In this document: piece after piece, positions 21,616 to 60,938 of the stretch
Layout of the letters: every line of letters starts with the position of its first letter
Numbering within the stretch: the stretch's first letter is position 1
Origin: Halarcobacter bivalviorum
GTDB lineage: Bacteria > Campylobacterota > Campylobacteria > Campylobacterales > Arcobacteraceae
NCBI RefSeq assembly: GCF_003346815.1
Contig: NZ_CP031217.1
Location: 124,001-188,000, forward strand
DNA: 64,000 nt
Direction of reading: 5' to 3'
The notes under the pieces: model-generated
Told to the model about the DNA's origin: nothing
Databases searched by the model: none
What the model saw: only the letters and a program-made list of their open reading frames with translations
Position numbers and translations under genes: made by a program

Positions 21616-23719
<2,104 letters not shown>

Positions 23720-51416: not shown

Positions 51417-52796
51417 TTAATATTTTATTATAAATTCAGAACCTTTTGAAAGTTCACTATTTATTTCTAGTGAGAAATTATGTAAAGAGATGATAGATGA
51501 TACTATAAATAATCCTAAACCTAAAGAGTTATTCCAACCATTTTGTGAGACACGAAAAAATTTCTGTTTAATACTTTTTAAATCAGCTTCACCAATACCT
51601 ATACCTTTATCTATTACAGAAATATGTTTGTCATCATATTTTATAATAACTTCATCTTCTGAATATTTTAGAGCATTTTCAACAAGATTTTCTAGTACCA
51701 TTGCAAATAGAGTCTCATCTACATTAAACTCATAATCTTGTTCACTATTAATGATAATTTCTCGTTGAGGATATTTATCTTTTAAATCAGAAACAACTTG
51801 AGTACAGATTTTTTTTATAGAGCATTTTGTTGTAAGAATTTGTTGTTTTCCTTCTTCTAATTTTAGTGTAAGTCTTAACTTATCAATTATATGAGACATC
51901 TTTATACCATTTGAATGTATCTTCTTTAAAAACTTTTCTTTCATAGCTTCTGGTAAATCTTTATCTGTAAGAATTGTTTCACTATATCCTGTAATTACAG
52001 CAATAGGATTTTTAAATTCATGGGAAATGGCTGAGATAATCTCATCTTTTTGTTTATTTGCAAGTTTTAGTTTTGCTGTCTGTTTTGATTTTTGCCGCTC
52101 TTTTTTTGCAAGTTTTGAAGCAACCTTATTTAGCAATCTAGTAATTTTATAAAACTCTTCAGAAAAATCAGAGTAGATTGTAGAAGTAGGTTTTTTATTA
52201 CTTAATTCAATTAGATAACCTAAAATTGCATTTGTCTCATTTCTAATTTTTATACTAATAAAATATGTTGCAATAAAAGTAGCAATTATAAATAAAGAGA
52301 TAAAAGAGATAATTTGAAATGCAAGTTTTGTGAAGTTTTCAATAATTTTAGCAGTATAATCTGCTAATCTTAAATAGTAAATTTCATCATCAATTACAAT
52401 TTTTTTAGCAACATAAAGTAATTCTTGGTTTAGAGTTCTTGAAAATCTAACTTTTTTTCCATAACCTTCATATTTTGCGTGAATAATCTCATATCGAGTA
52501 GAGTGATTTTCCATTGTTAAAATATCTCTATCACTATCGGCGATAACATTCCCTTCTTCATTAATAATTGTAATTCTAAGACCTGTTTTCCCTTTAAAGG
52601 TTTTAATTGTATAGTCTAGGGTTTTAAATGAAGTTAGATTTATAGATAAAGAGTCTATATTTTGAGATAAGTTTTTTTCAATTTGGTCAAGATATATATT
52701 CTTTGACCAAAAGTATGTTGTAGTACTAATAATTATTAATATAAATAAAAAGATTAAAGAAAATGTTCTAAAGAATACTTGGTGAAGTTTTAGCAA
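51417..52796 (-). CDS. phoR: PhoR-like sensor histidine kinase
   Basis: Membrane kinase of 459 aa that starts at a TTG inside the end of the regulator gene, with GGAGAAGG upstream (7-bp overlap). TM1 lies at about 9-28 and TM2 at about 155-177, with a periplasmic domain of about 125 residues between them. A short linker follows, then HisKA with His259 (ISHEFKNPIAVITGYSE). The ATPase domain has NLVENALKYS, DKGIGIG and NSLGLGLFIVSSI. Position at the end of the pst-phoU-psiE-regulator operon supports a phosphate role. Unlike E. coli PhoR it has a large periplasmic loop and no PAS, so the name is based on context. Confidence 0.85.
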   Translation of the reverse strand: MLKLHQVFFRTFSLIFLFILIIISTTTYFWSKNIYLDQIEKNLSQNIDSLSINLTSFKTLDYTIKTFKGKTGLRITIINEEGNVIADSDRDILTMENHSTRYEIIHAKYEGYGKKVRFSRTLNQELLYVAKKIVIDDEIYYLRLADYTAKIIENFTKLAFQIISFISLFIIATFIATYFISIKIRNETNAILGYLIELSNKKPTSTIYSDFSEEFYKITRLLNKVASKLAKKERQKSKQTAKLKLANKQKDEIISAISHEFKNPIAVITGYSETILTDKDLPEAMKEKFLKKIHSNGIKMSHIIDKLRLTLKLEEGKQQILTTKCSIKKICTQVVSDLKDKYPQREIIINSEQDYEFNVDETLFAMVLENLVENALKYSEDEVIIKYDDKHISVIDKGIGIGEADLKSIKQKFFRVSQNGWNNSLGLGLFIVSSIISLHNFSLEINSELSKGSEFIIKY

Positions 52797-53464
52797 AATA
52801 AGTAACCTTCTCCTCTTACAGATTTTATATACTCTTTACTATTATCAGGATCAATCTTAGCTTTTAATCTTTTGATAGCAACATTTACAGTTTTTAGTTT
52901 CTTATCATAAGAGTCTTCCCATACTGTCTCAAGTAAGTGTTCTCTTGTCATAAGAATATCTCTGTTTTTAATAAATTCTAATAGTAAATCATGTTCTAAA
53001 TGTGTTAATTCTATCTCTTCTGACTCAATATAAAACTTTTTATTTGAAGCTTTATATGTAATATCTTTAACTTTTAAGACATCTACATCTTTTGAACTTC
53101 TTTTTATTACAGCATTTACTCTAGCAAGTAGCTCTTGGATTTTAAAAGGTTTAGTAATATAATCATCTGCGTGAGATTTAAAGCCTTCTAAAATATCTTC
53201 ATCTTTATCTTTTGCAGTAAGATAGATTACTGGATAGTTATAACCTTTTTGTTTTATTTTTGAAATAAACTCTGTACCATCAATCCCTGGCAAGTTTCTA
53301 TCCATTAAAATAAGGTCAATTTTTTCTTCTTCTAATACTTTTTCTAAGCTTTTATTTACACTTAAAAAACCTATTGTTTCATAACCTTCTTTTTGTAAAG
53401 TATATTCTAAAAGTTCTAAGATATCTTCTTCATCTTCTACTATTAATATTAATTTATCATTCAT
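52790..53464 (-). CDS. phoB: PhoB-like OmpR-family response regulator
   Basis: Response regulator of 224 aa. The receiver has acidic pair Glu10-Asp11, phospho-acceptor Asp55 (ILMDRNLPG), Thr83 and Lys105 (KPF). The OmpR/PhoB winged helix follows (LTHLEHDLLLEFIKNRDILMTREHLLETVW, then VNVAIKRLKAKID and SVRGEGYLF). It overlaps psiE by 8 bp and the kinase by 7 bp. The 11-bp-period direct repeats before pstC and pstS suit a regulator of this class. Confidence 0.9.
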   Translation of the reverse strand: MNDKLILIVEDEEDILELLEYTLQKEGYETIGFLSVNKSLEKVLEEEKIDLILMDRNLPGIDGTEFISKIKQKGYNYPVIYLTAKDKDEDILEGFKSHADDYITKPFKIQELLARVNAVIKRSSKDVDVLKVKDITYKASNKKFYIESEEIELTHLEHDLLLEFIKNRDILMTREHLLETVWEDSYDKKLKTVNVAIKRLKAKIDPDNSKEYIKSVRGEGYLFC

Positions 53465-53850: not shown

Positions 53851-54519
53851 CTATACGTTTTCTAAATCCCCGCCAACTTCTGCAAAAACTAAAAGGTTTG
53901 CAATCGAAGCTGCTCTTCCAGAGATTTTCTCTAATTTTCTTAAAGAACTTAATACCTCAAAATAGTCTTTAGAAAGTTCAATTTTTTTAGTAATAAGTTT
54001 TAAGATATTTTTTTCAACCATTGCATATAGGTCATCAGTTTTGCTATCTTCAACTAATACTTTATTAAATTTTTGTTCAATAATTTTTTCATCATCTTCT
54101 AATACCATCTCAATAGCTGTTTGAAGAGCTAAATTTGATGATTTTAATAGAGGAATAGCATACTCTAAAATTGCTTCTGAGTTTAAATCTTCAGAGAAAG
54201 ATTTTCTAAAGTTTTTAGCAAATGTTTTAGAATAAGCCGCTGCTCTTATTAATTCATTTGTGATTTTTAAAAATGAAACCATCTCTCTTAAATCTTTAGC
54301 TTCTGGTGAATAAAGAGCTAAAGTCTTAACAATTAGTTTATCAATATCATTTGATTTAGTTGATAACTGTTTTAAAGATAGATTTACATCTTTTAACATT
54401 GATAAATCATTCTCTTTTAATGCAGATAAAGAGATTTTATTTGCATGAGAAATCTCTTCTCCAATACTTGAAATTTCACTTTTAATTTTATTAATATTCT
54501 CAATATATGGCTTTAACAT
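53851..54519 (-). CDS. phoU: PhoU-like phosphate regulator
   Basis: All-helical protein of 222 aa made of two PhoU three-helix repeats, each with an acidic metal site (LYSPEAKDLREMVSFLKITNELIRAAAYSK; the second around LRKLEKISGRAASIANLLVF). PhoU links the Pst transporter to the sensor kinase and shuts the response off in high phosphate. The ATG overlaps the pstB stop by one base. Confidence 0.9.
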   Translation of the reverse strand: MLKPYIENINKIKSEISSIGEEISHANKISLSALKENDLSMLKDVNLSLKQLSTKSNDIDKLIVKTLALYSPEAKDLREMVSFLKITNELIRAAAYSKTFAKNFRKSFSEDLNSEAILEYAIPLLKSSNLALQTAIEMVLEDDEKIIEQKFNKVLVEDSKTDDLYAMVEKNILKLITKKIELSKDYFEVLSSLRKLEKISGRAASIANLLVFAEVGGDLENV

Positions 54520-55305: not shown

Positions 55306-56490
55306 TTACCATTTAACTTCGTATTTTTTTCTTAAATAAATTGCTAAAGCATTTAGTGAGATTAAGATTGTTAATAACACCATAATACCAGCTGCTGTTT
55401 TTTCTATATACATTCTTTCTGGCATCCCAGCCCATGTAAATAATTGTGCAGGCATAACTGTTGCTGCTTCCATGATTGAACTAGGAGAATCTGGAATAAA
55501 TGCAATCATACCAATAATGATTAAAGGAGCAGTCTCTCCCATAGCTTGTGCTAAACCAATAATAGAACCAGTAAGAATTCCAGGGAAAGCTAATGGTAAA
55601 ACATGGTCTCTTGTAACTTCAATCTTTGTAAGACCTAAACCATATCCTGCTTGTCTAATTGAATCTGGAACAGCTCTTAATGCAGCTCTTGAACTTACAA
55701 TAATAATTGGTAAAGTCATAAGTGCAAGGGTAAGTCCTCCAACAAGTGGTGATGACCTTGGAAGACCAAACAAATTAATGAAAATTGCAAGACCTAAAAG
55801 ACCAAATAAAATTGATGGAATAGCTGCAAGATTATTAATATTTACTTCAATAGTTTGAGTAAACTTATTATCTTCTGCAAACTCTTCTAAATATACGGCT
55901 GTCATAACCCCAATTGGGAAAGCAAATACCATAGTAATTATTAGTGTTAAAATAGAACCAATAATTGCTGACTTTAAACCTGCAAACTCAGGTGTTTTTG
56001 AGTCCCCATTTTTAAAGAAAATTTCATTGAACTTAAGTTCTGCATGTCCATCAGCTTTCATATCATCAATTAAAGCTCTATCTTTTCTTTTTAGTTTATA
56101 GTAGTGACCTTTTAAATATTGGTCAACTTGGTCATCAGCAAGAACCCAAATTGTAGTTTTTGTTCCTAAAAGTTCTGGATTATTTTCAATCTCCATAGGA
56201 ATAGTTCTAAGCCATGCTCTTGAAACTATATTTTGATATTTTTTATCAATTGCTTTTCTATAGTTTTGTTTAGCTTCTTGACTATAAGTTACATCAATTT
56301 TTAAATAAGCTTGTTGAAAAGCTGGAGTTCCTTTTGTCACAATATCAAAAAGGAAAAAAATTAAAAAAGCGATTGAGAAAACTAAAGAAGTTAGTGTAAA
56401 TCTTTTAAATCTTCTTGAGCTTCTATGCCTTTTAGTCAATGTTGGGTCATAAAATGGATTATCTTTTTGTTTATCTTTTCTTTTAATCAT
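55306..56490 (-). CDS. pstA: Phosphate ABC permease PstA
   Basis: Inner-membrane permease of 394 aa. Beyond the usual six-helix core there is a long N-terminal part: TM1 at about 29-49, then about 125 soluble residues before the next helix, as in extended PstA proteins (E. coli 296 aa). The EAA loop is VPDSIRQAGYGLGLTKIEVTRDHVLPLAFPGI. The ATG overlaps pstC by 4 bp. Confidence 0.95.
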   Translation of the reverse strand: MIKRKDKQKDNPFYDPTLTKRHRSSRRFKRFTLTSLVFSIAFLIFFLFDIVTKGTPAFQQAYLKIDVTYSQEAKQNYRKAIDKKYQNIVSRAWLRTIPMEIENNPELLGTKTTIWVLADDQVDQYLKGHYYKLKRKDRALIDDMKADGHAELKFNEIFFKNGDSKTPEFAGLKSAIIGSILTLIITMVFAFPIGVMTAVYLEEFAEDNKFTQTIEVNINNLAAIPSILFGLLGLAIFINLFGLPRSSPLVGGLTLALMTLPIIIVSSRAALRAVPDSIRQAGYGLGLTKIEVTRDHVLPLAFPGILTGSIIGLAQAMGETAPLIIIGMIAFIPDSPSSIMEAATVMPAQLFTWAGMPERMYIEKTAAGIMVLLTILISLNALAIYLRKKYEVKW

Positions 56491-57416
56491 AATGTATTCA
56501 CTTTATATTTTTCTTTGAACTTTCTAATTAGTGACAGTGAAATAATATTTAATATTAAAGTCACAATAAATAGTGCTAATCCTAAGGCAAAAGCAACTAA
56601 TGTTTCAGGTGAGTTAAAAGCTTGGTCTCCAACAAGAGCATCAACAATTCTAACAGTAACAGTAGTCATATCTTCTAAAGGATTAATAGATAAGTTTGGT
56701 CTTAAACCTGCTGCCATAACAACAATCATAGTCTCTCCAATTGCTTTTGAAAAACCAAGTAGTGTTGCTGAGATAATTCCTGGTAATGCAGAAGGAAGAA
56801 CAATATTCCTAATAGTTTCCCCTTGAGTCATCCCTAACCCTAAAGATGCTTTTCTTTGAGAATCAGGAACTGCTTTAATAACATCATCAGATAAAGATGA
56901 AATTACAGGGATAATCATAATTCCCATAACAACACCTGAAGCAAGGGCTGAGTTAAAAGTAGCTTCTAATCCAAACCATGCAGCAGCTTTAACAATAAAA
57001 GGTGCAACTGTAATTGCAGCAAAGAAACCATAAACAACAGTAGGAATACCTGCAAGAACCTCTAAAATAGGTTTTAAATAAGACCTAGTCTTGTGAGAAG
57101 CATATTCACTCATATAAATAGCACTACCTAATCCTACAGGAATTGCAACACACATCGCAATAAATGTAATCATTAAAGTACCTGCAAAAATAGGAACAGC
57201 TCCAAATTTACTTCCTGGTATCCCCGGAGACCACTCAGTTCCAGTTAAAAAATACCACATACTTCTTACTTCAAAGAAGGCGATTGCTTCAAACAGAATT
57301 GAAAAAAGTATTCCAAATGTTGTAAGAATAGAGATTGTAGATGCTGTAATTAACGCAAACTTAATCATACTTTCTTTAATTGCTGTTGATTTGTTTTTTG
57401 ATTCAAATGAATGCAA
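56487..57416 (-). CDS. pstC: Phosphate ABC permease PstC
   Basis: Inner-membrane permease of 309 aa with six helices and the EAA loop VPDSQRKASLGLGMTQGETIRNIVLPSALPGI. The start is a TTG with AAGG 5-8 bp upstream; the next in-frame ATG is too far inside (MIKFAL at residue 17) but not impossible. It is first in the seven-gene unit pstC-pstA-pstB-phoU-psiE-phoB-phoR. A Pho-box-like repeat and a TAGAAT -10 lie just upstream. Confidence 0.95.
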   Translation of the reverse strand: MHSFESKNKSTAIKESMIKFALITASTISILTTFGILFSILFEAIAFFEVRSMWYFLTGTEWSPGIPGSKFGAVPIFAGTLMITFIAMCVAIPVGLGSAIYMSEYASHKTRSYLKPILEVLAGIPTVVYGFFAAITVAPFIVKAAAWFGLEATFNSALASGVVMGIMIIPVISSLSDDVIKAVPDSQRKASLGLGMTQGETIRNIVLPSALPGIISATLLGFSKAIGETMIVVMAAGLRPNLSINPLEDMTTVTVRIVDALVGDQAFNSPETLVAFALGLALFIVTLILNIISLSLIRKFKEKYKVNTL

Positions 57417-57445
57417 TTGACAACCTTATATTAAATTTTCGTAAT

Positions 57446-57477
57446 TCTACAATGGCTTAGTTACATGATGGTTACAA
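57446..57477 (-). promoter_or_regulatory. Pho-box-like operator and -10 of the pst operon
   Basis: On the plus strand GTTACAT (57460-57466) and GTTACAA (57471-57477) are 7-bp direct repeats separated by GATG, an 11-bp period like the E. coli Pho box. In operon direction they read TTGTAAC and ATGTAAC, and TAGAAT follows after 10 bp at about 57444-57449, the expected place for a -10 activated by PhoB. A matching site lies before pstS. Confidence 0.75.
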
Positions 57478-57509
57478 AATTGTGAAATAAGTAATGTTTT
57501 TATTAAGAG

Positions 57510-57540
57510 AAAAGAGGGAAACTTAAATATCCCTCTTTTA
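57510..57540 (-). terminator. Terminator after SHOCT gene
   Basis: AAAAGAGGGA (57510-57519) pairs with TCCCTCTTTT (57530-57539) around a 10-base loop, 3 bp after the SHOCT gene stop. On the minus strand it ends in a U-rich tract. Confidence 0.8.
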
Positions 57541-57542
57541 GT

Positions 57543-57848
57543 TTATTTTTGAGATAGAATTAATTTTTTTTGAGCTTTAAATTCTTGCTCTGTAATATAG
57601 CCTTGTTTTTTCATTTCAACTAGTTCTTTTAACTGCTGCATTTTATTATTTTTAGATGCTTTTGTATTTGCTTGAACCTTTTGTTCTGGCTCACCATCAA
57701 GTGAATTATTTACTCCGTCAACTGCTTTATCAAATAACTTATTTGAAAAGCTATCTGCAAATTGATCCATTTTATTACCAAAATCAAAAGCAAAAACAGG
57801 TGCTGATGCTAACAATGTAATTAGAAACAACTTCTTAAGTTTGAACAT
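57543..57848 (-). CDS. Secreted SHOCT-domain protein
   Basis: A 101-aa protein with a signal peptide (residues 1-20, ending ASAPVFA). A middle part rich in Asp, Asn and Lys follows, then a C-terminal SHOCT motif (MQQLKELVEMKKQGYITEQEFKAQKKLIL, about 70-99), a short helical oligomerisation module. The role is unknown. It lies between the pst operon and the c-di-GMP gene with its own terminator. Confidence 0.78.
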   Translation of the reverse strand: MFKLKKLFLITLLASAPVFAFDFGNKMDQFADSFSNKLFDKAVDGVNNSLDGEPEQKVQANTKASKNNKMQQLKELVEMKKQGYITEQEFKAQKKLILSQK

Positions 57849-57967
57849 TTTCTTCTCCTAAAAATATTTTTTGTTATTTTATATAAATAATCATTAAAAT
57901 AATATTTAACGATATATATTATAAAATATATTTAAATTTATTATTTTAATGTGTATAAATTGTAGAT

Positions 57968-59683
57968 TTAAAAGATTGAAGTTCCTAAAGGTATAGAACT
58001 TTTTTTAGAAGCACTTTTTATATTTCCAAGGCATAGATTAAATTGTTGTAAAGAGCTATTTTCAGAGATTTCAATTATAGCAGCACTTACTGATAAGAGT
58101 TTAAAGTTTCTACTTACACCAAATCTATCTTTAGAAGTCATATAAGCATTAGCAATATCTTTTTCATTATATAAACTTGAAGCACTTGATTGAAACTCTT
58201 CTTGAATATTTTTTATTAGATAATAGACATCTTCATATTGACTATTTGTAAAACCTACAAAAAAGTCATCACCTCCAACATGGGCAATAAAATTTTCACT
58301 TGAAATATTTTTTTGTAGGATTTCTGAGAACATTAAAATTGCACGATCACCTTGTCTGAATCCATAAGTATCATTGAAAGGTTTAAAATCATTAAAATCA
58401 AAATATACAATTTGAGCATGTTTATTATTTTTAAAACTATTCGAAATAAAGCTCTCTATTTGATTGTTCCCCGGTAGTTTTGTTAAAGGATTTTGATTCT
58501 GAGCTATCTCTATATTTCTTTTATATGAAAGAGATAATAGGTTATTTAAGTTAATGAAACCATAATATTGAGAATCTTTGGTTACAAAAATACCTTTTGC
58601 ATCATTTTGCATATTAAATATTTCTAAAGCTTTATCTATTCCCCAACTAATATCAATTTCAAGTACAGGTTTTATATAACTTTTTAACTTAGCTTTAAAA
58701 GAGTCATTTTTAGCCAATGATAAACCATATTGTGAATAAGAAATCTCTTTAATATCAACTTCATAAATTGCACCTAGAATCTTTTTTTCATCATCAATAA
58801 TTGGTACAAAAGTATTTAAAGTATGCTCTTTAAAATATACAAATAGTTCATGTAAACTTGCATTTACATTTAAAGGGTCAATCTTATCGATAAAGGATTT
58901 ATCAATAAAATTTCCTCTTGATACCCTTCTATCTTTTTCAAAAATATTCTCTTTAGTATAGAATTTTTTTATCTCTTTTATATCTAAAGTGGGTCTAGAA
59001 ACTAAATACCCTTGAATGTAGTCTGCTTTAATCTCTTTACAAACATAATATTCTTCTTTTGTTTCAATGCCCTCTGCAATAACTTTTATTCCCATAGTAT
59101 GAGCCATCTCTACAATAGAAGCACAAAACAATCTTTTTTTTGCATCTTTGTGAATATTTTCAATAAAGAATTTATCAATTTTAATAAAATTTGTATCTGA
59201 GATGTATAATAAGTGAAGACCTGAAATTCCTGTTCCAAAATCATCTATTGCAATATTATAGTTTTTTGATTTATAGGTACTAATAATATGTTTGATTTCT
59301 TGGTCTTTATCAAAAGAACTATGTTCTGTAATCTCAAAACATATTGAATCTTTACTAAGTTCATATTTCTCTAGTAGTTCGGCAGTTTCCCCAAATTTAA
59401 AATCAGGCATTGTAAAAAATCTATTATCAATATTATAAAAAAGTTTTAGATTATTAATATTAATTTTTCTATATTTTTTAATAGCTTTTTTTCTTAAGAG
59501 CATATCAACTTTGTATAAAATTTTTTTTTCAGCTAAAGTATCAAAGAAATGAAAGATTGATTCAAACTCTAATTCTTCAACATTTCTAATTAAGGCTTCT
59601 ACAGCAAAAATTTTACCTGTATATGTATTTACAATAGGTTGAAAAGCAAAGTCAAGTTTGTCAACATCAATTTTAGTTGACAT
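57968..59683 (-). CDS. EAL-CBS-GGDEF c-di-GMP protein
   Basis: A 571-aa cytoplasmic protein. The EAL phosphodiesterase domain (about 8-245) has EALIR (29-33), the NIAIDDFGTG loop and VIAEGIET, so c-di-GMP hydrolysis is likely. A CBS-pair-like region (about 260-395) may bind a nucleotide such as AMP or ATP. The GGDEF domain (about 400-560) begins NPLTKLPGNNQIE and has the signature as GGDDF (about 471-475). The Glu-to-Asp change and the HV preceding it suggest weak or no cyclase activity. No membrane segment is visible. It lies between pstS and the pst operon, without a visible Pho box of its own. Confidence 0.88.
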   Translation of the reverse strand: MSTKIDVDKLDFAFQPIVNTYTGKIFAVEALIRNVEELEFESIFHFFDTLAEKKILYKVDMLLRKKAIKKYRKININNLKLFYNIDNRFFTMPDFKFGETAELLEKYELSKDSICFEITEHSSFDKDQEIKHIISTYKSKNYNIAIDDFGTGISGLHLLYISDTNFIKIDKFFIENIHKDAKKRLFCASIVEMAHTMGIKVIAEGIETKEEYYVCKEIKADYIQGYLVSRPTLDIKEIKKFYTKENIFEKDRRVSRGNFIDKSFIDKIDPLNVNASLHELFVYFKEHTLNTFVPIIDDEKKILGAIYEVDIKEISYSQYGLSLAKNDSFKAKLKSYIKPVLEIDISWGIDKALEIFNMQNDAKGIFVTKDSQYYGFINLNNLLSLSYKRNIEIAQNQNPLTKLPGNNQIESFISNSFKNNKHAQIVYFDFNDFKPFNDTYGFRQGDRAILMFSEILQKNISSENFIAHVGGDDFFVGFTNSQYEDVYYLIKNIQEEFQSSASSLYNEKDIANAYMTSKDRFGVSRNFKLLSVSAAIIEISENSSLQQFNLCLGNIKSASKKSSIPLGTSIF

Positions 59684-59764
59684 GGAGCACCTCTTTAAAA
59701 TAGTATTAAATATGGGCTCTTAGTATTTGTTCGCGTGAAATAATAAAAGTCCATATATAAAACT

Positions 59765-59793
59765 ATTAAAAGAAGACAAAGTCTTCTTTTAAT
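59765..59793 (-). terminator. Terminator of pstS
   Basis: A perfect 13-bp stem (59765-59777 with 59781-59793) and an AAA loop lie 25 bp after the pstS stop. On the minus strand a short T-rich tract follows. Confidence 0.8.
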
Positions 59794-59817
59794 TTATATA
59801 TTATTAGTAGGGAAGGA

Positions 59818-60873
59818 TTAGTGTTTTAAGTCTTCAATTTTAAGTTTTTTAGAACTCATAACAGCATTTCTAATTTCTGATCTTGTTGCATCAGGTAAAG
59901 AAATTAGACCAATTTCTGCTAAAATACCATCAGGTCCAATCATATTTTCTGACATAAACATCTCTACATATTTATTCATAGAAGGAACTTCTTTTTTATG
60001 AGAGTTTTTAATGTAGAAGAATAATGATCTAGAAACAGGATATTCTCCAGATGAAATAGTTTCAGGAGTTGGAGATACATTATTAATTGTTGCACCAGAA
60101 AGTTTATCATCATTTTCAATTAAGAAAGAGAATCCAAATATACCAAATGCTTCTTTGTTCTTATTTAACTTTTGAACGATAATATTATCATTCTCTCCAG
60201 ATGGAACATAAACACCATCAGTTCTAACAACAGAGTATTTTTTATATTTTTTGTTAGCTTTATTATCTTTTTTGAATAAATCAGTATATACAGGCATTTT
60301 TTTGAATACTTTTTGCATTACTAGCTCTTCAAATGCATCTCTTGTTCCAGATGACTTTGGTGGTCCATAAATAATGATTTCTCTATTTGGTAAAGAAGCA
60401 TCAATATCTGACCATTTTTTATATGGGTTAGCAATTAAAGATTTTCCATCTTTAGAAGGAACTTCAGCAGCAACTGCTAATGCTAATTGTTCACTTGTAA
60501 TATTAAATGCAGGATTAGATTTTGATTGTGCAAATGCAATTCCATCATATCCAATTACTGATTCAGTAATATCAGTAACTCCATTTTTTTCACACATAGT
60601 GAACTCTTTTGCTTTCATTCTTCTTGATGCATTTGTAATATCTGGTGTATTTAAATCATTTCCAGCACAAAATAGTTTCATTCCACCACCTGAACCAGTT
60701 GATTCAACTACTGGAGTTGGGAATTTAGTTGTAGCACCTAATTCTTCAGCAACTGCAGATGAGAAAGGGTATACTGTAGATGAACCTACAATTTTAATCT
60801 GATCTCTAGCACTTAAAGATACAGTAAGTGCAGCACTTGCTAATAAAGCAACTGTTGTTTTTTTGAATGTCAT
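59818..60873 (-). CDS. pstS: Phosphate-binding protein PstS
   Basis: Periplasmic phosphate receptor of the Pst transporter (351 aa from the start chosen). The ATG at 60873 is preferred over one 12 bp upstream because GGAG sits at the right distance only for the former, and the signal peptide (MTFKKTTVALLASAALTVSLSA) then starts cleanly. The phosphate-loop pattern IKIVGSSTVYPFSSAVAEEL, then ESTGSGGGMKLFCAG and PPKSSGTRDAFEELV are typical. It is transcribed apart from pstCAB, with its own Pho-box-like repeats. Confidence 0.94.
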   Translation of the reverse strand: MTFKKTTVALLASAALTVSLSARDQIKIVGSSTVYPFSSAVAEELGATTKFPTPVVESTGSGGGMKLFCAGNDLNTPDITNASRRMKAKEFTMCEKNGVTDITESVIGYDGIAFAQSKSNPAFNITSEQLALAVAAEVPSKDGKSLIANPYKKWSDIDASLPNREIIIYGPPKSSGTRDAFEELVMQKVFKKMPVYTDLFKKDNKANKKYKKYSVVRTDGVYVPSGENDNIIVQKLNKNKEAFGIFGFSFLIENDDKLSGATINNVSPTPETISSGEYPVSRSLFFYIKNSHKKEVPSMNKYVEMFMSENMIGPDGILAEIGLISLPDATRSEIRNAVMSSKKLKIEDLKH

Positions 60874-60909
60874 TTTTGTCTCCATATTTTAATTATGATA
60901 TGGAAGTAT

Positions 60910-60938
60910 ATTAGTTGTTGATTACAACTTGGTTACGA
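60910..60938 (-). promoter_or_regulatory. Pho-box-like repeats upstream of pstS
   Basis: On the plus strand three 7-bp units lie at an 11-bp period: ATTAGTT (60910), ATTACAA (60921) and GTTACGA (60932), each followed by a 4-bp spacer ending in TG. In gene direction the two better ones read TCGTAAC and TTGTAAT. They end 37 bp before the pstS ATG. Confidence 0.72.

Follow-up and report, generated by a model that had tools for sequence, protein, structure and literature searches.

The pstC and pstS genes in a 64,000-nucleotide stretch of Halarcobacter bivalviorum DNA (the window) are each preceded by a pair of direct repeats that stand at a fixed distance from a -10 hexamer. These elements are very probably lineage-specific Pho boxes with a TGTAAY core, and the PhoB-like response regulator encoded from 52790 in the same locus is predicted as their most likely reader, in line with what a first-pass annotation of the window had proposed. 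This high confidence covers pstS, pstC and the set of genes predicted to be activated elsewhere in the genome. Our analysis offers a Pho regulon of an Arcobacter-type genus that is defined at the sequence level and open to testing; enrichment of the same box extends to several more families of the order.

Probable Pho boxes upstream of pstC and pstS

On the minus strand, the pstC promoter reads TTGTAAC-CATC-ATGTAAC (57477-57460), followed after 10 bp by TAGAAT, and the pstS promoter reads TCGTAAC-CAAG-TTGTAAT (60938-60921), followed by the -10 hexamer TATACT likewise exactly 10 bp past the second half-site. Both elements show the geometry of a Pho box, namely two 7-bp direct repeats with a 4-bp spacer and an 11-bp period.

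57444-57477, minus strand: Pho box of the pstC-pstA-pstB-phoU-psiE-phoB-phoR row; half-sites 57477-57471 and 57466-57460, 10-bp gap, -10 TAGAAT at 57449-57444
60905-60938, minus strand: Pho box of pstS; half-sites 60938-60932 and 60927-60921, 10-bp gap, -10 TATACT at 60910-60905

The first-pass annotation had described the two pstC repeats with their 11-bp period and the TAGAAT 10 bp beyond them, and we found both as described; the pstS hexamer was absent from it. It had also counted three repeats before pstS. Two of these are borne out, and the third (60910-60916, GTTGTTG-like on the plus strand) was rejected: it lies inside the gap before the -10, and GTAA occurs at that register in none of the 11 genus pstS boxes checked (11 of the 12 composite pstS matches, one of two identical ones being omitted).

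A weight matrix trained only on the pstC sites of 28 relatives, with none from the H. bivalviorum genome, ranked the pstC box (32.0 bits) and the pstS box (18.4 bits) first and second in the window. The best scores in 40 Markov-1 random windows had a mean of 7.7 and a maximum of 18.6 bits. The pstC box alone is far beyond chance; the pstS score is slightly below the largest random one, so that the pstS box is secured by its position and conservation. The third-ranked match (22548-22581, 10.3 bits) lies inside an open reading frame (ORF) at 22469-23719 on the opposite strand and was dropped. A sigma-70 consensus scan of the locus gave 61 promoter-like sites against 60.0 in shuffles and was not used.

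Patterns were also counted, with the reversed pattern as control. The strict composite pattern matched 6 times in the H. bivalviorum genome against 0 for the control, a slightly wider version matched 8 times against 0, and in 16 genomes of the genus the composite pattern matched 116 times against 6. The spacing of TGTAAC...TGTAAY pairs was surveyed from N2 to N9 among the first 150 pairs listed, which came from 9 of the 16 genomes (the last one in part). The 11-bp period (N5) accounted for 47 of these pairs, the spacings N2, N4, N7 and N8 for 3, 4, 7 and 8, and the codon-phased spacings N3, N6 and N9 for 28, 27 and 26.

Conservation of the box in the family and the order

A PstC match is present in 85 of 104 genomes of the family, and 30 of these 85 loci were examined. 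The pstC box was found in 29 of the 30 (H. bivalviorum included), about 61-72 bp before the start of the PstC match, and in the sole locus without it (L135) pstS lies directly upstream of pstC. TANNNT follows at offset 10 in all 28 pstC boxes of the relatives, whereas no other offset between 4 and 19 has it in more than 3. Among the ten best named loci, eight (L001-L007 and L010) carry a box upstream of pstS, pstC or both, and TANNNT lies 10 bp past the box in 12/12 boxes before these genes. The distance from Pho box to -10 follows a rule in E. coli; here the box takes the place of a -35 element at a fixed distance of 10 bp from the -10 (28/28 and 12/12). The first-pass annotation had staked its reading on the repeats being conserved before the pst genes of relatives, which they are (29/30 family pstC loci, 8/10 best named loci).

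Across 396 genomes of the order, composite matches clearly outnumbered controls in the families f1 (270 vs 10, 57 genomes), f15 (163 vs 8, 55), f5 (86 vs 6, 55), f19 (59 vs 3, 38), f6 (35 vs 0, 13), f8 (10 vs 0, 5) and f17 (20 vs 4, 16). No enrichment was seen in four families, namely f9 (2 vs 3, 55 genomes), f12 (2 vs 8, 56), f13 (0 vs 0, 8) and f14 (3 vs 1, 12); each of the other eleven families contributes 1-11 genomes. Thirty loci from 13 genomes that belong to other families, drawn from 63 matches listed, include boxes before pst genes, phoB itself, PhoD, PhoX, olsF, glpR, an EAL gene and a pit gene. The half-site that had been ascribed to this lineage is indeed lineage-specific, though not confined to it, being common to several families of the order.

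Genes associated with the box in the genus

By annotation, 84 of the 116 genus sites adjoin genes that serve to take up or scavenge phosphorus or to make phosphorus-sparing lipids. The notion of a local phosphate regulon did not survive this survey: the box is found genome-wide, at olsF, a lipid gene pair, phnF, phosphatases, a chemoreceptor and pit. The sites fall into the following classes.

Phosphorus-related classes (84 sites): pst 25, olsF 16, lipid pair 10, pit 11, phnF 9, phnN-like 4, glpR 4, PhoX-/PhoD-like 5
Remaining classes: NIT chemoreceptor 14, Phn/Pot-type ABC transporter 2, LRV 3, peroxiredoxin/ferredoxin 3, others 9, not looked at 1

For the 25 pst sites the class follows from their coordinates, for the other classes from the leading residues of the neighbouring ORF. 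Profile searches covered one or a few members per main class, and most members owe their assignment to similarity only (L188 as PhoD and L223 as PhoX, for example). One site, G068:C1:2984390, stands outside the class assignment.

The olsF gene is boxed in 16/16 genus genomes, with the -10 ending 19-24 bp before the start codon, and OlsF of H. bivalviorum passes NF052615 (836.6 bits, cut-off 620). A divergent metallophosphoesterase/glycosyltransferase (plcP/agt-like) pair occurs in 10 genomes with back-to-back boxes, both followed by a -10 at 10 bp in 10/10 loci. On its phosphoesterase side all 10 loci fit NNGTNAY-N4-NTGTAAY-N10-TANNNT, in which the first half-site is relaxed and reads TGTCAT or TGTTAT, not TGTAAY; the H. 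bivalviorum site is ATGTCAT-TAAC-TTGTAAC-N10-TAAACT. In the proteins of the pair, only a Metallophos and a glycosyltransferase group 1/4 domain were recognised, and neither protein reaches an NCBIfam cut-off. The glycosyltransferase start codon lies just 5-6 bp past the predicted -10 (L153, L158, L160, L169, L185, L192, L201, L208, L221 and L306), so that this mRNA would be nearly leaderless.

Genes of the C-P lyase type were found in part of the genus. PhnJ is present in 9/16 genomes, and phnF is boxed in all 9. In G054 the boxed phnF leads a row resembling phnC-D-E-G-to-N, in which PhnD, PhnI and PhnJ were profile-checked. The one PhnF protein scanned (L157), which leads a row with PhnD, PhnI and PhnJ, falls short of the TIGR02325 cut-off (142.3 vs 156.8 bits). 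H. bivalviorum itself has no PhnJ and carries a boxed phnN-like gene, under the TIGR02322 cut-off (130.2 vs 156 bits). The ABC transporter gene of L227 and L307 may belong to a phosphonate or a polyamine transporter, both models being under their cut-offs.

A NIT-domain chemoreceptor is boxed in 14/16 genus genomes. The H. bivalviorum protein (L303:205-3174; G000:C1 from 1156904) has 989 residues, with NIT and MCPsignal domains above and CZB below cut-off, and is a candidate phosphate-linked chemotaxis receptor. The regulon as outlined predicts phosphorus-free membrane lipids together with such a phosphate-linked chemoreceptor. In three close species (L194, L198 and L207) the box stands at a peroxiredoxin/ferredoxin-like pair, named by eye, with no known phosphorus role.

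The PhoB-like regulator and other readings of the box

The protein encoded at 52790 has a receiver and a winged-helix domain, carries base-contact residues of PhoB, and adjoins a PhoR-like kinase behind the pst genes. A PhoB match at E<=1e-40 was found in 17/17 box-bearing genomes tested, and six of eight box-free genomes had no match, the other two having weak ones. The structure of E. coli PhoB on DNA shows a contact of R201 with G, of T194 and V197 with T, and of R219 with bases that lie between the half-sites (PMC3973317). The window protein keeps all four residues, which matches the TGT that its half-site shares with that of E. coli. Of 23 other PhoB-type sequences, four of them additional copies from genomes already represented, all have R201 and V197, 19 have T194 and 20 have R219. 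The recognition helix of the window protein differs from that of E. coli by D196N, H198A, R200K and R203K; in the other sequences position 196 is N in all 23, H198 is replaced by A except in two (T), R203 by K except in two (N), and R200 by K, N or S. These changes may cause the shift of the half-site from TGTCA to TGTAA, and the co-change of regulator (D196N/H198A/R203K) and operator is now directly testable.

Several observations speak against this assignment. The 52790 product stays under the PhoB cut-off TIGR02154 (172.3 vs 296.2 bits), though PhoB is the best of 97 models, and the PhoR-like kinase and PstS are likewise under their NCBIfam cut-offs. The box-bearing genomes of other families that entered the co-occurrence comparison were chosen for their many matches. 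For 15 of the 116 genus sites (3 at LRV genes, 3 at the peroxiredoxin/ferredoxin pair and 9 at others) the gene concerned has no evident role in phosphorus metabolism; a further 14 sites lie at the chemoreceptor and 2 at the ABC transporter of ambiguous type, and 1 is left unassigned. Neither pstS nor pstC is boxed in two of the ten best named loci, L008 (from a mussel-symbiont bin) and L009 (from a gammaproteobacterial bin), and in other families several boxes have no recognised neighbour and one lies inside a gene.

We therefore weighed two other readings of the repeats. That they are chance matches in an AT-rich genome could appeal to a loose scan with three mismatches, which was barely above expectation and uninformative in the window (21 sites vs 14.6 expected, a number reached in 6/100 shuffles) as in the whole genome (735 vs 568 for the reversed pattern). 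The strict composite counts, 6 vs 0 in the genome and 116 vs 6 in the genus, and the same position of the box before pstC in 29/30 loci refute this reading, to which we give practically no weight. The repeats might instead be the operator of another OmpR-family regulator: similar tandem repeats serve regulators of this family in general (PMC4832192), regulators of the HP1043/CosR type are present in the order as well, and the 52790 protein misses the NCBIfam PhoB cut-off. However, the target set is rich in phosphorus genes, box and PhoB co-occur across the sampled families, and the HP1043 consensus is a different word. Moreover, phoB here follows the boxed pstC in its row, and in G347 and G413, which belong to other families, it has a box of its own. 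We regard a regulator other than the 52790 protein as very unlikely.

With Pho boxes read by the PhoB-like protein as the preferred explanation, we propose the following mechanism. Under low phosphate, the PhoR-like kinase (51417-52796) would phosphorylate the PhoB-like regulator (52790-53464), two molecules of which would bind the two half-sites head to tail. The half-sites would stand in for a -35 element, ending 10 bp upstream of the -10, and recruit sigma-70 RNA polymerase, raising expression of pstS and of the pstCAB-phoU-psiE-phoBR row, presumably as one operon. A positive loop would result because phoB lies in the boxed pst row. Through the same composite site the regulator may act genome-wide, with olsF, the phosphoesterase/glycosyltransferase pair, the C-P lyase genes where present, phosphatases and the chemoreceptor as genes predicted to be activated.

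An inverted box in the pit leader

The pit leader has the same layout in 16/16 genus genomes: TANNATNNTA-N10-inverted box, right before the ribosome-binding site (RBS) and a TTG start. These 16 pit genes were picked by the Pit protein alone; 17 places were found, of which L302, a more divergent additional copy in G065, was set aside because its start was not located. The inverted box begins 14 bp past the sense pit -10 in all 16, and an outward -10 (TAKGAT) lies exactly 10 bp from the inverted box, overlapping the pit -10 by 2 bp within TANNATNNTA. The exact pattern of this layout was matched in 18/104 family genomes, which represent four genera, and gave 0 control matches. Outside the genus, ten loci also show it upstream of pit, four of them among the 18; L328-L333 were picked by the composite including the outward -10, and L310 and L325-L327 by the pit pattern, so that they lend no independent support to the outward -10.

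Since the box is inverted and lies just downstream of the pit -10, repression is predicted. The PhoB-like regulator probably represses pit in this genus, an expectation drawn from position only: bound to the inverted box, which would cover about +8 to +25 from the presumed pit start, it would switch off the low-affinity phosphate transporter. Apart from the positional nature of this argument, two points weigh against it. In G256 of family f17 a box faces the pit gene in the activating direction, 31 bp upstream (L233; G256:C55:871-904), and E. coli pitB is judged in PMC10294691 not to be a PhoB target, which sets it apart from the boxed pit here.

Repression could come about in two ways. A simple roadblock or occlusion of RNA polymerase, with the outward -10 as a by-product of the conserved pit -10, is somewhat favoured: the box lies 14 bp past the sense -10 and just before the RBS in 16/16 genus genomes, and PhoB activates or represses depending on site position (PMC10294691). 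Yet all 16 retain the TA with which the outward -10 begins, while the preceding base is variable (CCTA or CATA), and the gap measures exactly 10 bp throughout, neither of which a pure roadblock needs; moreover, all 16 cases come from one genus, and because of the G256 box of another family, which faces pit in the activating direction, we lowered our estimate for the roadblock slightly. The overlap of the outward -10 with the pit -10 suggests, more doubtfully, a direction switch in which phosphorylated PhoB on the inverted box would recruit polymerase the opposite way, repressing pit by turning polymerase round rather than blocking it. If this were true, a single polymerase-binding spot would serve pit when phosphate is high and a divergent RNA when it is low.

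We also observed TTAAGYTTNNTTAAA exactly 22 bp upstream of the pit -10 in 15/16 genus genomes (L286-L301). The single miss (L293, G065:C256) is a contig end that looks like an Illumina Nextera adapter. TTAAGYTTNNTTAAA is close to the HP1043 consensus, ttTAAG-5bp-tTTAAg (PMC8345958), and resembles a site for an HP1043/CosR-type activator.

Comparison with known phosphate regulons

The E. coli Pho box (CTGTCAT N4 CTGTCAT) shares with the boxes described here the 7-bp direct repeats, the 4-bp spacer, the TGT core and the position before pst genes; its half-site is TGTCAY, whereas here it is TGTAAY. A TGTCAY composite gave 7 matches vs 3 controls in the 16 genus genomes and 0 in H. bivalviorum, compared with 116 vs 6 for TGTAAY, and the difference from E. 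coli claimed in the first-pass annotation is thus supported. Single ATGTCAT half-sites are present on the phosphoesterase side of the lipid pair, in H. bivalviorum as well. The PhoP boxes of Bacillus subtilis and Streptomyces are also tandem repeats, with half-site words that differ from the one here; the Streptomyces box is GTTCACC N4 GTTCACC. Pho boxes are described in a review as 11-nt direct-repeat units whose word varies between species (PMC4415409).

Within the order there are parallels to the system predicted here. Campylobacter jejuni belongs to the same order as H. bivalviorum, and the operator of its PhosR appears to be another word. The PhosR/PhosS two-component system of C. jejuni responds to phosphate limitation and controls pst and phoX (PMC9449129, PMC6250842, PMC3197622), as is predicted for the system here. 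The C. jejuni gene for a phosphate-taxis chemoreceptor, upstream of phoX and co-transcribed with it (PMC6250842), parallels the boxed NIT chemoreceptor.

Marine heterotrophs are known to remodel their lipids through PlcP and Agt, with predicted Pho boxes (PMC4796936); there, as here, a metallophosphoesterase gene adjoins a glycosyltransferase gene. Unlike that arrangement, the pair described here is divergent with back-to-back boxes, and the two were likened by their domains. That paper's main text does not contain the word Epsilonproteobacteria. Ornithine lipids have been found in Sulfurimonas (PMC9789136), and pstSCAB, phoU and phoB were noted in a Campylobacterales bin, in two passages that name no box (PMC4674564). 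We found no open-access paper joining 'pho box' with 'Arcobacter', and wider open-access searches, with subscription papers and regulon databases outside their scope, gave no such regulon in the title or abstract start among the matches listed. Taken together, this is a system of a known kind, and what is new, as far as the literature searched reaches, is the operator word and how widely it is spread, the set of target genes and the layout at pit.

Organization of the pst locus

The genes pstC, pstA, pstB, phoU, the PsiE-family gene and those for the PhoB-like and PhoR-like proteins are closely packed on one strand, downstream of the pstC box.

56487-57416, minus strand: pstC, TTG start; PF00528
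55306-56490, minus strand: pstA; PF11812 and PF00528
54519-55289, minus strand: pstB; PF00005, gene order and spacing
53851-54519, minus strand: phoU; PF01895
53457-53849, minus strand: PsiE-family membrane protein; PF06146
52790-53464, minus strand: PhoB-like response regulator, predicted reader of the boxes; profile matches, residue comparison and co-occurrence
51417-52796, minus strand: PhoR-like sensor kinase; HisKA and HATPase_c, best NCBIfam model PhoR, under its cut-off
59818-60885, minus strand: pstS; PF12849, TIGR02136 under its cut-off; probable start ATG at 60873, judged from the RBS
57968-59683, minus strand: EAL-CBS-GGDEF (cyclic-di-GMP) gene between pstS and pstC
57543-57848, minus strand: small SHOCT-like gene between the EAL gene and pstC; weak PF09851, under its cut-off
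59765-59793, no strand assigned: bidirectional terminator-like hairpin between pstS and the EAL gene

The position of the terminator-like hairpin between pstS and the EAL gene implies that read-through may be limited. Another hairpin, AAAAGAGGGA...TCCCTCTTTT, was seen by eye at 57510-57539 of the window, between the end of the SHOCT-like gene and the pstC box; it is not among the hairpins listed by the locus hairpin scan.

The EAL-CBS-GGDEF gene lies immediately upstream of pstC in 26/30 family loci (H. bivalviorum included), which predicts a cyclic-di-GMP enzyme in the phosphate locus and makes a conserved link from phosphate to cyclic-di-GMP possible. In a relative from another family, the EAL gene (L308:2174-3916) has its own Pho box 33 bp upstream.

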